A stretch of 64,000 bases of DNA. It comes from Deltaproteobacteria bacterium (GTDB taxonomy: Bacteria; Desulfobacterota; BSN033; UBA1163). The notes beneath the pieces were generated by a model. It was not told where the DNA came from. It searched no databases and saw nothing but the letters and a program-made list of their open reading frames with translations. The stretch spans positions 55,431 through 119,430 of the forward strand of contig JAGVBT010000164.1 of NCBI GenBank assembly GCA_020059605.1, written 5' to 3'. Both the position numbers and the translations under genes were made by a program. The stretch's first letter is position 1; each line of letters begins with the position of its first letter. Shown here one piece after another: positions 48,405 to 56,032 of the stretch.

Positions 48405-50474
48405 CTATGCGGTCAAAAGGATTCGTGCATCCGCGGCGATGGCCCCTTTCTCCAGCGCCATCACCGGATTGATATCAATCCCCTCGATTTGTGGGAATTC
48501 GATCATCATCTGGGAGAGCCTCAGGAGCATCTCAATAATCGCGTCGATATCCGACGGACGTTCTCCGCGCACTCCCTTGAGGATTCCGGATCCTCTCAAT
48601 TCAAAAATCATTTCTTCTGCCTCGGAACGATTGATCGGAGCGACCCGGATGGAAGTCTCCTTCAAAACCTCCACATAGATACCGCCCACGCCAAAAAGGA
48701 GAACCGGGCCAAACGAGGGGTCCCGTTTCGCTCCCAGGATGATTTCTTTGCCGGCGGAAATCATCTTTTGAACGAGGACACCGCTGATATTTCCCAGGCC
48801 CGTGGCTCTCATTTTCCCGTAAGTCTCTTCGGCCTTCTTGAGAGAGTCGATGCCGAGGACCACCCCGCCCACATCCGATTTGTGCGATATCTCCGGAGAG
48901 ATGACTTTCATGGCGGCAGGGAAGCCGGTCTTTTCGAGGGCCTGCGGCAAATTTTCCTTTCCGTGGACCACCCCATATTCGGCAACGGCAATGCCGCAGG
49001 CCTGAAGCGCTTCCATCGCCTCCGGGAGAAGGAGATCCCTTTTCTCTTTCGAGGCTCCCTGAAGAATCGAAGTGACGCGGTTCCGGTCGAAGGGATAGGA
49101 AAGGGGAGGACTCTTTTCCGTGGTTAACCTTCGGTAATAATCCCTGGAGATCGCCAGGGCCGTTAAGGCATCTTCAGGTTCCGTGAAGATCGGATAGTCG
49201 AGGGCTCTCTTGATGTAAGCCAGCTCCTCTTCATCAGTGTTGTATTGAAGGGCGACCGGTTTCTGATAACGTAAGGAGAGTTCCCTGACCGCCTGGACGA
49301 ATTTTCTGGAAGGCTCTTTCTCCTCAGCCGTTGCTCCGTGCTGAAAGAGGATCCCCTGGACCACCGGGAATCTGAGAGCCTGTTCGAGGATAGTGGTGTA
49401 GAGATCGAAATTAAAGAGATCTCCGAGATCGAGAGGGTTGGTGGGCTGGATTACCTTTGCCCGGAAAAGGCTGTGAAACTGTTCCTGGAGTTTTGGGTCC
49501 GGGGGAAGAAGACGGAATCCATGCCGTTCTGCAGAATCAGCGGCGACCACACCAATGCCTCCGGAGCGGGAGATGATCACCAGGTTTTTGCCTTTGCAGG
49601 GCGGCAGGGAGAGGATCTTGACCGCGTTGACAAAAGACCGGAAGTCCTTGGTGCGGATGATATCCGCCTGTTTCAGGGCGGCCTCCACGACCCGGTCGTC
49701 ATTGGCCAGGGCGGCGGTGTGAAGCTTTGCAATCTCGCGGCTTCCTTCGCCGGTATTGGACTTGTGAATGATGATCGGCTTGGAGGTGGAGCAGGCAATC
49801 TCCATCAACTCCCTTCCCCGCTCGAGGCTCTCCAGGTAAAGTCCGATGATTTCGGTCTGGGGGTCTTCGATCAGATATCTCAGATAATCGATCTCATCGA
49901 GATCCAGCTTATTCCCCATGCTCACCATTTTTGAAAGCCCCACATTGGCGCTGATCATGTGGTTCGCATAAGAAAGAAGGACTCCTCCACTCTGGGCCAG
50001 GATGGAGAGCTTGCCTTTGGTCACGGGCCCTTTCTTCAGTTTGACAAATGGAACGACAAAGCCATTATCGACATTGGTAATGCCGATTCCGTTTGGCCCG
50101 ACAATCCGGATCCCCCATCTCCTGGCGGTCCGGAGGACGGTTTGTTCAAGTTGGCCTCCTTCTTCCGAATATTCCCTGAAGCCCCCGGTTTCAATGATGG
50201 CCCAGGAGATTTTTTTCCGCCCGCAGGCATCGACCAGGTCAGGCACGGTTTGAGCAGGCGTGAGGATGACGGCCACATCAACGCCGTCAGGGAGTTGGTC
50301 CAGGGAGGTCAGGACCTTTCGTCCGAAGAGGACGCACTCCTTTCTTCCGACCAGGTGGATTTCACCGTTAAATTGAAATTCGAAAAGGTTTTCGACGATA
50401 TTTCTTGCCAGGTTGTCAGGGCGTTCCGAGACGCCGACCACAACCACCGATTTGGGATAGAAGAGCTGGTCCAC
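48405..50474 (-). CDS. ADP-forming acetate-CoA ligase family protein (alpha-beta fusion)
   Basis: FYPKSVVVVGVSERPDNLARNIVENLFEF, VGPNGIGITNVDNGF, ILAQSGGVLLSYANHM, C-terminal ATP-grasp: AMKVISPEISHKSDVGGVVLGI, GRDPSFGPVLLFGVGGIYVEVLKE-like. Confidence 0.92.
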   Translation of the reverse strand: MDQLFYPKSVVVVGVSERPDNLARNIVENLFEFQFNGEIHLVGRKECVLFGRKVLTSLDQLPDGVDVAVILTPAQTVPDLVDACGRKKISWAIIETGGFREYSEEGGQLEQTVLRTARRWGIRIVGPNGIGITNVDNGFVVPFVKLKKGPVTKGKLSILAQSGGVLLSYANHMISANVGLSKMVSMGNKLDLDEIDYLRYLIEDPQTEIIGLYLESLERGRELMEIACSTSKPIIIHKSNTGEGSREIAKLHTAALANDDRVVEAALKQADIIRTKDFRSFVNAVKILSLPPCKGKNLVIISRSGGIGVVAADSAERHGFRLLPPDPKLQEQFHSLFRAKVIQPTNPLDLGDLFNFDLYTTILEQALRFPVVQGILFQHGATAEEKEPSRKFVQAVRELSLRYQKPVALQYNTDEEELAYIKRALDYPIFTEPEDALTALAISRDYYRRLTTEKSPPLSYPFDRNRVTSILQGASKEKRDLLLPEAMEALQACGIAVAEYGVVHGKENLPQALEKTGFPAAMKVISPEISHKSDVGGVVLGIDSLKKAEETYGKMRATGLGNISGVLVQKMISAGKEIILGAKRDPSFGPVLLFGVGGIYVEVLKETSIRVAPINRSEAEEMIFELRGSGILKGVRGERPSDIDAIIEMLLRLSQMMIEFPQIEGIDINPVMALEKGAIAADARILLTA

Positions 50475-50657
50475 TTTTTCCCCTCCTTTAAATGTAAATC
50501 ATATCCTCAAAGGGAGCAGTTTTCAATAAGCCGGAGATGAAATATTTTATAATTTTATAAACAAAAGAGGCGAAAACTGGTATAATGATTTAACGGGTCG
50601 GACCAGGGCAGCTACGGGTAGCAAATAAGTTCGCCGGATATAAATTCATACCTACCC

Positions 50658-50692
50658 TTGACAAATGTAACCTATAGGGTTACATATAACCC
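50658..50692 (+). promoter_or_regulatory. higBA promoter/operator
   Basis: TTGACA 50658-50663, 17-bp spacer, TACATA 50681-50686; TGTAACC tatag GGTTACA palindrome 50666-50684 lies between/over them. Confidence 0.65.
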
Positions 50693-50987
50693 GTGATTAA
50701 GTCATTCAAACATAAGGGACTTGAGGACTTTTTCTATACAGGAAAGAAGAAAGGCATAAAGCCGGAACACGCTGACCGGCTGGAGAGAATTCTTGATAGG
50801 TTAAATGCTGCGAGTGAAATAAGGGACATGAATTATCCTGGTTCCGACCTGCACAAGTTGGCAGGTGACAAGAAGGGCCAATATGCTGTAAAAGTTTCTG
50901 GAAATTGGAAGAGTCTTTTTCGAGTTTGTCAACGGCAACGCCTATATTGTCGATTACGGCGATTATCACCGAGAGGTGAGGACATGA
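50693..50987 (+). pseudogene. HigB/RelE-type toxin, frameshifted into HigA frame
   Basis: MIKSFKHKGLEDFFYTGKKKGIKPEHADRLERILDRLNAASEIRDMNYPGSDLHKLAGDKKGQYAVKVSGNWKS; next frame continues VFFEFVNGNAYIVDYGDYHREVRT* with ATGA overlap to HigA. Confidence 0.8.
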
Positions 50988-51298
50988 GAAAAATGGAAAG
51001 AGAACCAACGCATCCAGGGAGGATTATAAGAGAAGACTATTTGAAGCCTTTAGCGATGACGATTAGCGAGTTTGCATCGGTTCTCGGTGTTTCAAGAAAG
51101 ACTTTATCAAAAATCCTCAATGGAAGGGGAGCTGTTACTCCGGACATGGCGCTTCGTTTGGCTCGTGCTTTTAATACAACCGCTGATTTCTGGCTCAATT
51201 TGCAGAAGAATCACGATTTGTGGCAGGCGGAGCATACATCGAATGATTGGCAGAGGGTAAAACCCATCTCCCCCCAGTTAATTCATTCTCATTTGTAG
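50984..51298 (+). CDS. higA: HigA-type HTH antitoxin
   Basis: EREPTHPGRIIREDYLKPLAMTISEFASVLGVSRKTLSKILNGRGAVTPDMALRLARAFNTTADFWLNLQKNHDLW. Confidence 0.9.
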   Translation: MRKMEREPTHPGRIIREDYLKPLAMTISEFASVLGVSRKTLSKILNGRGAVTPDMALRLARAFNTTADFWLNLQKNHDLWQAEHTSNDWQRVKPISPQLIHSHL

Positions 51299-51303
51299 AA
51301 AGC

Positions 51304-51393
51304 AGTGAACAACTGCATGAACCTGAGGCGGATTAGCCGCGTCAGGTTTTTGGAATCGATGGGTGCCCGCGCAAGTTATACAAATCGTTCTGC
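51304..51393 (+). other. Degenerate attC-like recombination site (attC-0)
   Basis: GTGAAC-type left core, AACCTGAGGCGG/CCGCGTCAGGTT internal stem, right core AAATCGTTCTGC similar to AAATCGTTCGGC of the next site. Confidence 0.45.
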
Positions 51394-51413: not shown

Positions 51414-51767
51414 ATGGAAAGAACTAGAACTATCTCTTGGGGCGACCCGCAAATTAGCAAGAGAGATGCTGTTACTTCGATTTCTGGGTTAGACTATCTA
51501 AAGGCAATAAAGGAAGATAGAATTAGCCCACCGCCAGTTGCTAATCTTGTTGGCTATAAGATTTACGAAGTCGATAATGGTTACGCCGCTTTTGATCTTA
51601 ATCCCGCAGAATATCATTATAATCCTTTTGCAACAGTTCATGGCGGTAATCTTTCAACATTGCTTGATACTACAATGACGGCTTCAGTCCTATCAACGCT
51701 TCCAAAGCACTATAGCTGCACAACAATTGAGATTAAAGTAAATTTTATCAAATCATGGGAAGGCTGA
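51414..51767 (+). pseudogene. PaaI-family thioesterase, C-terminally truncated
   Basis: LVGYKIYEVDNGYAAFDLNPAEYHYNPFATVHGGNLSTLLDTTMTASVLSTLPKHYSCTTIEIKVNFIKSWEG*; hotdog HGG motif then abrupt end. Confidence 0.7.
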
Positions 51768-51817: not shown

Positions 51818-51910
51818 ATGAAAAAGATAACTGCGACCGATGTCCTGGAATTATCGATACCAGAAAGGATTCAATTGGTAGAAGATATTTGGGACACCAT
51901 ATGCCAGTAG
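51818..51910 (+). pseudogene. Addiction-module antitoxin stub
   Basis: MKKITATDVLELSIPERIQLVEDIWDTICQ*, matches N-terminus of putative addiction module components; truncated at the intron-remnant junction. Confidence 0.65.
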
Positions 51911-52681
51911 CCCTTTCTGCTTAGTCCCGCCAGTATCGCCTGATACCGGACCGAACCAAGTTTGATAAGCTCGCCGATGCGTCTTCTGGTCCTGCGCCAC
52001 TGTTTCCAGTAACCCATGCGGATATGCCTGCGTAGCCAATGATCCGGTTCAACCGCGTCATTGTACTTCATCCCGACACCGAAATAATTCATCCATCCCG
52101 GGATGTATCGGAGGAGGGATGAGTATCGGTATTGCATGGATACGCCCCAACTGCGCCCGGTCAGGCGGCGCAGCCGTGTTTTGAATCCATGGATAGCTTT
52201 CTCAGTGGCAGTCAGTTTCATCCTCGTGAACGTGAACCCAAGGAAAGAACTGTCCTGAGCACGGACCACGTTGCTTTTGCCCCTGTTCACCCTGACCTTG
52301 AGTTTTGTCTCAAGGAAACGGCTGATCCTTGCCATCACGCGATGAGCGGCACGTTCCGACTTGATCAGGATGATCAGATTATCCGAGTAGCGTGCGAACC
52401 GATGACCCCGCTTTTCAAGCTTCTTATCGGGGTCATCCAGAAGAATATTGCTCAACATTGGCGAAAGAGGGCCGCCTTGCGGCACTCCCTCGGCTCGCAC
52501 GTTTGCACTCCGGCTTCCTTCAGACGGTCGGTTGTCCTCCCGCCCTTGCCTTCGGCTCGTACTTTTGGTAGTATTCCTGAACATGAATACCCTCGGTTCT
52601 CGTACAGGGGACTTCCTGCCCCGCCGTAGCCTCTGGCGAAGCAGGTCACCCCATAAGTTCACGCCCATGCCGGGCGTACAC
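51899..52681 (-). mobile_element. Internally deleted group II intron remnant with partial reverse transcriptase/maturase
   Basis: RT ORF piece RAEGVPQGGPLSPMLSNILLDDPDKKLEKRGHRFARYSDNLIILIKSERAAHRVMARISRFLETKLKVRVNRGKSNV...FLGFTFT...SRKGYWHM; 5' end GTGTACGCCCGGCATGGGCGTGAACTTATGG at 52681 reading leftwards. Confidence 0.85.
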
Positions 52682-52764
52682 AACTAAATCAACCCGACCG
52701 GGAATAGGCTCGTTTAGTTTCAATGCGGTGTGGTTGCCCCGGCGGGTTATTTAAATCGTTCGGC
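52682..52764 (+). other. attC-like site interrupted by the intron (attC-1)
   Basis: L'' AACCCG(A)CCGGG (52691-52702), L' CCCCGGCGGGTT (52737-52748), R' GTTCGGC (52758-52764); R'' reduced to AAC at the intron edge. Confidence 0.7.
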
Positions 52765-52784
52765 CTCAAAAATAACTGCGATAA

Positions 52785-53287
<503 letters not shown>

Positions 53288-53301
<14 letters not shown>

Positions 53302-53347
53302 ACCGGATCGCCGATAAACCCAGCTCCCAGTTACCTCTTCGTTCGGC
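53288..53347 (+). other. attC-like site (attC-2)
   Basis: Exactly complementary cores GCCGAAC (53288-53294) and GTTCGGC (53341-53347); imperfect inner arms GCTGAACCGG / CCAGTTACC with one extra base. Confidence 0.65.
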
Positions 53348-53361
53348 GCGACATAAAAAAG

Positions 53362-53907
53362 ATGAAGGATAGCGATATGACCCCGAAAAAATTTTTTGAC
53401 TGGCAGACAGCGGGCGGTGCGGATGATGTCATGCGTTTGGTTGATTGTCTCGAGCGGGCGGATCTTGCATGGTGCGCAATTGGCGGCATAGCTGTTAATC
53501 ATTGGGCCGAGGAACCGATAGTGACTCAAGTTGTCGATTTCGTCGTTGTGGCAGAATCCGTAGAGCTCGCCACGAAACTTCTTGAGGAGGCCGGATTTGA
53601 ATCGGAACGTTTTCAGTGGTCAACTAATTTTCGCGGTCGTTCGAAGGTGAGTATTCAATTGAGTACGGAAGATTTCTATAAAGAGTTTCCGAGTCGATCT
53701 GTTCCGGCAGATATACACGGGATTCTTATGCGAGTTGCTTCTCTAGAAGATACGTTGCGCGGAAAAATCAAAGCGTGGCGAGATACGGAAAGAAGACAGA
53801 GCAAAAAGCTCAAGGACCTCGGCGACATCGCCCGGTTGGTAGAAAGCCATCCTCATCTTTGGGAACTTCTTGACGCGGATTTGAAACAAATCATTCATAA
53901 ACAATAA
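53362..53907 (+). CDS. Nucleotidyltransferase-like protein
   Basis: LVDCLERADLAWCAIGGIAVNHWAEEPIVTQVVDFVVV... (GG-x-A-VNHW-x9-DFVV NTase pattern) RVASLEDTLRGKIKAWRD. Confidence 0.7.
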   Translation: MKDSDMTPKKFFDWQTAGGADDVMRLVDCLERADLAWCAIGGIAVNHWAEEPIVTQVVDFVVVAESVELATKLLEEAGFESERFQWSTNFRGRSKVSIQLSTEDFYKEFPSRSVPADIHGILMRVASLEDTLRGKIKAWRDTERRQSKKLKDLGDIARLVESHPHLWELLDADLKQIIHKQ

Positions 53908-53917
53908 TTGTGCAGGG

Positions 53918-53989
53918 GCCGAACAACGGCATGCACCAGACCCCAAAAGCCTTGTGGCTTTCGGTTCTGGTGATGCCGGAGCGTTGGAG
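53918..53989 (+). other. attC-like site (attC-3), best preserved
   Basis: R'' GCCGAAC, L'' CGGCAT(G)CACCAGA, variable stem AAAGCC ttgt GGCTTT, L' TCTGGTGATGCCG, R' core GTTGGAG. Confidence 0.75.
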
Positions 53990-53997
53990 GTTTAATA

Positions 53998-54141
53998 ATG
54001 ACCTACAAAAAGAACTGCAAAGGCTGCAACATAACGCGGGAACAGCCTACAGGCGGTATCATTGAAATAGGCGAGCATTGGCTCGTGAACCAGTATTGGG
54101 GAGATGAGTGTTGGGCCATGGGGCGTAGTTTAGTTATTTAA
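53998..54141 (+). pseudogene. Truncated small cassette ORF (HIT-like N-terminus)
   Basis: MTYKKNCKGCNITREQPTGGIIEIGEHWLVNQYWGDECWAMGRSLVI*, resembles HIT-like N-termini; stops early. Confidence 0.4.
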
Positions 54142-54399: not shown

Positions 54400-54618
54400 A
54401 TGACTACAGCGATTTCAATCAGACTCCCCAAACCCCTTGCGGATCAACTGGAAAGCATAGCCAAAGAAACTGAAAGACCACGGTCATTCATCATTCAAAA
54501 AGCTCTGGAGTCCTACATAGAAGACTACGCGGATCTCCAGGTGGCATTGGACCGACTCCATGATAAAACAGACCCGGTTATTTCAGGCAAAGATTTGAGG
54601 AAGTCCCTTGGCCTATAA
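54400..54618 (+). CDS. RHH/CopG-family antitoxin
   Basis: TTAISIRLPKPLADQLESIAKETERPRSFIIQKALESYIEDYADLQVALDRL; AGGAGG RBS. Confidence 0.9.
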   Translation: MTTAISIRLPKPLADQLESIAKETERPRSFIIQKALESYIEDYADLQVALDRLHDKTDPVISGKDLRKSLGL

Positions 54619-54865
54619 TATTGTTTACAAGAAGTCAATCCAGCGAGATCTGAAGAGGCTTTCCAAGGCCGAATCTCAACGCGTTCTAAATAAAATTGAG
54701 GAAGAACTTTCAGAAAATGCAGACAACTATCCTGTTCTCAAGGGACAGTTCACAGGTCTGCGGAAATATCGTATCGGAGACTACAGGGTAATCTATGCTA
54801 TTTTAGGAGATGATGTCCTTGTGCTCAGAATCGGTCACAGGAAAGAAGTCTATAAGAAAAAGTAG
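54608..54865 (+). CDS. RelE-family toxin
   Basis: YNIVYKKSIQRDLKRLSKAESQRVLNKIEEELSENADNYPVLKGQFTGLRKYRIGDYRVIYAILGDDVLVLRIGHRKEVYKK; overlaps the antitoxin gene. Confidence 0.93.
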   Translation: MAYNIVYKKSIQRDLKRLSKAESQRVLNKIEEELSENADNYPVLKGQFTGLRKYRIGDYRVIYAILGDDVLVLRIGHRKEVYKKK

Positions 54866-54883: not shown

Positions 54884-56032
54884 TCAGAATTTTCTTTCCC
54901 TTAAAATCTGCTCATGTAATTCTTTAAAGCCTTTTGGGGGGATGGCATCAGACTTTCTCACCAATTGAACCGCTTTGGCAGGGCAGGGGACAGCGCAGAC
55001 TCCGCAGCCGATGCACCATTCTTTATCGACCACCGGGAAATCTCCCTCCATCCGGATCACATGGACGGGGCAAATATCGACGCATGCCCCGCATCCTGTG
55101 CAGCGCTCCCGGTCCGTTTCCCTGAGAAAGTAGGTGGCCATCAGGACATCCCTCGGGATTCTCTTTCTCCGAATCGTCCCGACCGACCAACAACAACAGC
55201 CACAGCAATTGCACGTGTGTTTAATTCCTTCCCTGGCATTATCGACCATGTGAACCAGGCCCGCCTCTTCCGACTTTTTAATAATGTGAAGGGCCTCCGG
55301 TTTTGTAATCTCTCTTCCAATCCCTTTATCGATCAAATAGTCGGCCAGCTCGTCATATTTAATACAGTTCTCAAGGGAGTGGTTGCACCGTTTCTTGCCG
55401 ATCAACTGGGCGGTTGCCCGGCAGGGGCAGTGGACCAGGGCAATTCTTTGGACTTTTTTTATCAATTCCTCCATCATCTCAAATGGAAAAACCGCATGGC
55501 TTTCCGGCTCAAATGACGGGGCGGCAGGAATGTATCGGAATGCCTTTGTCTTCGTCTTTCCATAAACTTCACGGAGCTCCTCGTTGCGGGCATACTTGCC
55601 GATCAGTTCCGCCATCCTTTTTGCATTCGGAGCGTCGATCCCCTGCCAGAAGAAGGTCTGCGGGAAACCATATCCGAACTGTTGAAGAGCATATCCTGTT
55701 TCCCCATTCTTCAACTTTCCCGAATAGAGAAGACCGCGCTGGGCCAGATTGGATAAGATCCGCTCCAGTTCATCTTCCGGGATGTTCAGGCGGGGCGAGA
55801 TTTTCGACAGGGGGGCAGGCTCCAGGGGAATCACCTGTGCAGGAATGGCCAATGCGACCTCCGCTTCACGCGAGGTGAAATTCTCCCTGAGAATTTCAAG
55901 AAGTTCTTCTTTTTCAGGATAACCCATCCCCAAAGAGGAAAGGTGTTTGGCCAACCTTTGGTAGATATTTTCGCCCACCACAGCCTCCATTTCGCCTGAC
56001 CTTGTGAAATGATGAAAAACCAGTAACTTCAA
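54884..56032 (-). CDS. 4Fe-4S dicluster-type ferredoxin protein with winged-helix-like N-terminus
   Basis: CTGCGACVDICP, CIGCGVCAVPCPAKAV; CPCRATAQLIGKKRCNH; CNCCGCCCW. Confidence 0.88.
   Translation of the reverse strand: MKLLVFHHFTRSGEMEAVVGENIYQRLAKHLSSLGMGYPEKEELLEILRENFTSREAEVALAIPAQVIPLEPAPLSKISPRLNIPEDELERILSNLAQRGLLYSGKLKNGETGYALQQFGYGFPQTFFWQGIDAPNAKRMAELIGKYARNEELREVYGKTKTKAFRYIPAAPSFEPESHAVFPFEMMEELIKKVQRIALVHCPCRATAQLIGKKRCNHSLENCIKYDELADYLIDKGIGREITKPEALHIIKKSEEAGLVHMVDNAREGIKHTCNCCGCCCWSVGTIRRKRIPRDVLMATYFLRETDRERCTGCGACVDICPVHVIRMEGDFPVVDKEWCIGCGVCAVPCPAKAVQLVRKSDAIPPKGFKELHEQILRERKF

Follow-up and report, generated by a model that had tools for sequence, protein, structure and literature searches.

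It has been proposed that CALINs (clusters of attC sites lacking integron-integrase), in which at least two such sites lie together with no intI nearby, are degraded integrons (PMC9024848). In Xanthomonas, integrons of different species share one conserved chromosomal slot, the ilvD locus, where some still have intI and others have lost it, and CALINs occur elsewhere (PMC12444791). Bottom strands of characterised attC sites carry a pair of extrahelical bases on one side, typically arranged as T-N6-G, as in the sites best used by IntI1, and the identity of these bases has a larger effect on recombination than on binding (PMC3053210). Such sites are also targets of group IIC-attC introns, which are reported to enter the attC bottom strand at its R'' and to run antiparallel to the cassettes (PMC7923331).

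Here we describe a locus of this known kind in a 64-kb stretch of DNA (64,000 nucleotides, hereafter the window) on contig C5 of a 4.38-Mb genome in 167 contigs. We are highly confident that positions 53918-53989 are the attC of a nucleotidyltransferase cassette within a four-attC CALIN derived from a complete integron at the same locus, and the site is a clean example of its class. Like the CALINs recognised by IntegronFinder (PMC9024848), the cluster has four tandem attC sites, all within 2.7 kb, no intI nearby and fewer cassettes than complete integrons, as scored with a covariance model from the resident genome; unlike them, it has a syntenic complete integron surviving in a sister species, so that an origin by integrase loss is visible. 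The arrangement recalls the Xanthomonas ilvD locus (PMC12444791), except that the slot here lies between an acyl-CoA synthetase-like gene and a 4Fe-4S protein gene.

The site comprises 72 bases on the + strand, and re-reading of the sequence agreed base for base with the layout given in a preliminary description of this DNA: GCCGAAC-AA-CGGCAT-(G)-CACCAGA-[25 nt]-TCTGGTG-ATGCCG-GAGC-GTTGGAG. These segments correspond to R'' (53918-53924), AA (53925-53926), L'' (53927-53940, with a top-strand extrahelical G at 53933), the VTS (53941-53965), L' (53966-53978), a spacer (53979-53982) and R' (53983-53989), and both invariant boxes are present, AAC in R'' and GTT in R'. The site shares with the attC sites (59-base elements) of sedentary chromosomal integrons the R''-L''-VTS-L'-R' order, the AAC/GTT boxes, the L'' bulge, the T-N6 spacing, the position after the cassette gene and the bottom-strand fold. 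It differs from them in that its R' ends as GTTGGAG owing to the next cassette, its second extrahelical base is predicted to be paired and its extrahelical C stands in place of the commoner G.

Folding of the bottom strand and a covariance search, both named as checks in the preliminary description, were run on this site. Folding of the bottom strand gives a 13-bp stem with one bulged C on its 3' side, at -22.1 kcal/mol (z -4.69), a value that none of 200 shuffles equalled, and the top-strand fold is weaker (-19.8 kcal/mol, z -2.98). Sequence and folds confirm that the inner arms are fully complementary save for one base, and the second small stem that had been proposed within the variable region is real, extending on the bottom strand to CCGAAAGCC/GGCTTTTGG. 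In a home-made scan for AAC, complementary arms and GTT, the site scored 13.7, the highest value in the window, and no score of 12 or above was obtained from 20 dinucleotide shuffles of the whole window. A search of Rfam at gathering thresholds gave no match within the window.

The covariance model was built from 28 aligned attC sites on other contigs of the same genome—from cassette arrays on C26, C49, C62, C94, C140 and C157, together with C158—and so contained zero window sequence. Applied to both strands of the window, it returned four sites, all on the + strand and in one cluster, with nothing further up to E = 10; across the whole genome there were 59 matches at E ≤ 0.1. The site at 53918-53989 scored 31.0 bits (E 1.9e-5), in the lower part of the range of resident attC sites (about 20 to 71 bits). 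It had been called the best-preserved of the hairpins, which holds for its inner arms but not overall, since the neighbouring site at 53288-53347 scores higher by covariance (33.3 bits, E 5.1e-6). The attC reading itself, already put forward from the letters alone, is upheld by the model match, the bottom-strand fold, the location at a cassette gene's 3' end, the presence of three more sites on the same strand and the match between R'' and the cassette start set out below. On these models and predicted folds, 53918-53989 is a genuine attC, most likely a structurally competent one.

The extrahelical base needs restating. It was described as a G, which is right for the top strand, but the recombining bottom strand carries a C. 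Nor is a single extrahelical base the hallmark of an attC, as had been supposed, given the same-side pair seen in characterised bottom strands (PMC3053210). The bottom strand of 53918-53989 does have the T-N6-C spacing, with the T predicted to be paired (P = 0.99) and to cost about 2.7 kcal/mol to flip. One predicted bulge on that side was also obtained with the same folding method for 25 of 55 resident sites, and the canonical T-N6-G is retained in the fold of a neighbouring, intron-interrupted attC (52674-52764). The predicted pairing of the second extrahelical T may lower the activity of the site; its single bulge is thus possibly a weakness and not a hallmark.

An integron integrase cuts after the G of GTTRRRY, so that all of R' but its leading G, six bases in all, comes from the cassette that follows, and R'' has to be compared with the start of its own cassette. 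The R'' at 53918 (GCCGAAC) is the exact reverse complement, at all seven positions, of the GTTCGGC at 53341 that begins its own cassette, and the R'' at 53288 (also GCCGAAC) is likewise the exact reverse complement of the GTTCGGC at 52758 that begins the preceding one; two complete cassettes thus stand in tandem, BrnT/A and then nucleotidyltransferase. Among scanner-called neighbour pairs in the resident arrays, R'' perfectly matches its own cassette start in 20 of 34 cases and the R' next to it in 4; missed or spurious neighbours account for many of the exceptions. When the circle site of the nucleotidyltransferase cassette is reconstituted, the R box is fully paired in the predicted fold (-28.0 kcal/mol). 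The preliminary description had also remarked that the final base of R' departs from GTTRRRY; GTTGGAG was correctly read, but no special cause is needed, because R' takes its TTGGAG from the start of the next cassette. Within one genome, then, R'' travels with its own cassette and the ending of R' is borrowed from the next one, and borrowed endings of this sort explain why real sites can seem to depart from GTTRRRY and so might be doubted by a reader or missed by a search on a strict pattern.

The nucleotidyltransferase cassette is 642 bp long (53342..53983, +), starting inside the GTTCGGC at 53341-53347 and ending with the G of R', and holds an ORF of 177 aa (53374..53907, +) encoding an AbiEii/MNT-like nucleotidyltransferase (Pfam AbiEii 28.3 bits against a cut-off of 22.5, in a scan of the translation from the ATG at 53362). 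Upstream of it lies the BrnT/A cassette (52759..53341, +), with a BrnT toxin gene (52821-53093, +; Pfam 98.8 bits), an ORF in the BrnA position that has no family match (53080-53301, +) and the attC at 53288..53347 (+), whose L arms are degenerate. The interrupted attC at 52674..52764 (+) scored 23.7 bits. At the left of the cluster, the first cassette encodes a HigB-like toxin and a HigA antitoxin (50693..51298, +; Pfam 56.8 bits; TIGR02607 115 bits) and is followed by a weak attC (51304..51393, +; 14.0 bits, E 0.28), which is supported by homologous sites in two relatives, one 81.6% identical over 87 bp in the sister species G298 (L090 6265-6351), itself a model match, and one 78% identical in G140. 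Next comes a hotdog-fold (4HBT) thioesterase ORF (51414..51767, +), probably truncated, judging by its match to profile positions 2-43 of 79, the first half only. Beyond 53918-53989, the following cassette carries a 47-aa ORF (53998..54141, +) with no Pfam or NCBIfam match and one weak relative; the covariance model found no attC downstream of this ORF, and its cassette is for that reason probably truncated too.

The full order is thus acyl-CoA synthetase-like gene (48405-50474, -), partial attI-like stretch, HigBA, thioesterase, group II intron at an attC R'', BrnT/A, nucleotidyltransferase with its attC, 47-aa ORF, RHH/RelE pair and 4Fe-4S protein gene (54884-56032, -), both flanking genes being named from how we read their sequence. 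The RHH/RelE toxin-antitoxin pair (54400-54865) closes off the cassette region on its far side and has no recognisable attC.

The intron is a truncated group II element (51871..52683, -) that retains the C-terminal half of the reverse transcriptase, now joined to the intron's own 5' end, and the maturase domain (RVT_1, GIIM; TIGR04416 139.6 bits, covering profile positions 174-353 only). Its encoded protein is identified by these profile matches and by 55% identity to plasmid group II reverse transcriptases; among the matches listed, plasmid matches to DNA of the cluster fall in the group II intron region. The 5' end of the intron abuts the AAC of R'' in the neighbouring attC, at 52678, and it runs antiparallel to the cassettes. 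Interruption at R'', on the bottom strand and in this orientation, is shared with group IIC-attC introns (PMC7923331); the window's intron differs in being truncated, and it is likened to them by its insertion site. At its other end, the remnant breaks into a short addiction-module-like ORF (51820-51909).

In five relatives, too, the stretch enclosed by these two flanking genes is variable. With the model, attC sites are recovered from this slot in G298, G299, G300 and, from another genus, G081, as clusters or single sites that keep one orientation relative to the flanks; G140 gave a weak match only. In G298 the slot holds an intact intI (420.7 bits) that points away from its own cassettes, and an attI-like stretch separates it from the first of them. 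The left half of such an attI-like region is present in the window (50550..50640, +), as shown by aligning it with G140, G299 and the attI that adjoins the G298 intI; in that alignment the right-hand core, TTCGTCTATTNAATGTT, is absent from the window, kept in G140 and G299 and altered at two bases in G298. This core lies just ahead of the first cassette in three relatives (L088 2440, L091 3783 (-) and L090 9837 (-)), where an upstream inverted partner accompanies it (TAGACAAA/TAGACGAA). A whole-genome search with TIGR02249 found no intI on C5, so that both intI and the attI core, present in the G298 slot, are missing here. The idea that an intI might be hidden in 50475-50690 was rejected: this gap is no longer than about 215 bp, and on its left side it aligns to intergenic/attI sequence of relatives.

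The same search recovered a full-length IntI on contig C158 (412.8 bits, cut-off 265), about 46% identical to the intI of the syntenic slot in G298. Partial matches were also seen at C94:26754-27110, C140:9231-10169 and C49:16707-16946, and these integron-integrase fragments suggest, from sequence comparison, more than one past integron in the genome.

Because the same slot carries a complete integron in the sister species, we read the window's cluster as a CALIN left by integrase loss; the simplest history, as far as sequence comparison goes, would be a complete integron at the slot that lost intI in the window's lineage. Some of its cassettes evidently came or went after the window and G140 parted, since the RHH/RelE stretch is 92% identical at the DNA level between the two and nothing in the G140 slot corresponds to the HigBA, BrnT/A or nucleotidyltransferase cassette. 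A slot that is complete in one species and integrase-less elsewhere, with attC sites that are still well formed, offers a before-and-after view of how a CALIN arises.

An alternative that we consider rather unlikely is that 53918-53989 is a decayed attC, the fossil of a lost integron that no integrase recognises any longer. The want of a local intI, the partial attI, the truncated cassettes that flank the two complete ones on both sides and the predicted pairing of the second extrahelical base would all suit such decay. Set against this are arms that pair perfectly save for the bulge, an R'' that still exactly complements its own cassette start, a score inside the range of resident sites and a full-length IntI in the genome. 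A history without any integron at this slot, in which an IntI encoded elsewhere inserted the cassettes singly at secondary genomic sites, is very improbable: such insertion is a known possibility (mentioned in PMC12444791) and the genome does have its own intI on another contig, but several relatives have attC sites in the same slot and in one orientation, G298 has an intact intI there, and in G140, G299 and the window alike the acyl-CoA synthetase-like gene has attI-like sequence beside it.

It is scarcely credible that the site is an ordinary inverted repeat, such as the intrinsic terminator of the nucleotidyltransferase gene. A stable hairpin about ten bases past the stop codon is what a terminator would provide, but no T-run follows it on either strand, and a terminator would not be expected to have an asymmetric bulge or AAC/GTT boxes, to match the covariance model or to agree with the cassette-end rule; the match, the rule and the missing T-run rule this reading out. 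A chance hairpin is ruled out by the z-score of the fold, the scan of shuffled windows and the covariance match.

If the site is, as we favour, an attC in a CALIN derived from an integron, its bottom strand would in vivo fold to the bulged hairpin when single-stranded, and an integron integrase would be expected to bind the R and L boxes, with the extrahelical base(s) setting the choice of strand. A cut between the G and TT of R' would then excise the cassette as a circle or allow it to be joined to attI or another attC. With intI and half of attI presumably lost at this slot, any mobilisation today would depend either on the intact C158 IntI acting in trans or on transfer. That the CALIN is a working outpost, its attC sites recombined in trans by the divergent C158 IntI, strikes us as unlikely; were it so, one genome would be running a multi-locus pool of cassettes with a replaced integrase.

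The nucleotidyltransferase gene has homologs of 83-89% identity in other families of the phylum, and none of the plasmids searched for it carries one. Three copies, 88-89% identical to the window's gene, occur in G296 (L018, L044); the two of these that were read have an attC of other sequence (32.8 bits) and the same GTTCGGC start about 35 bases before the gene. The homologs in G083 (85%) and G208 (83%) are without a recognised attC, and no close copy of the exact attC at 53918-53989 was found beside any of the 83-89% identical genes. Different attC sites, or none recognised, beside genes this similar indicate that the histories of gene and attC are partly separate. More distant homologs, about 38-40% identical (L023, L024, L028), are preceded by a similar conserved stretch that ends just before the start codon, possibly a partner gene absent from the cassette version.
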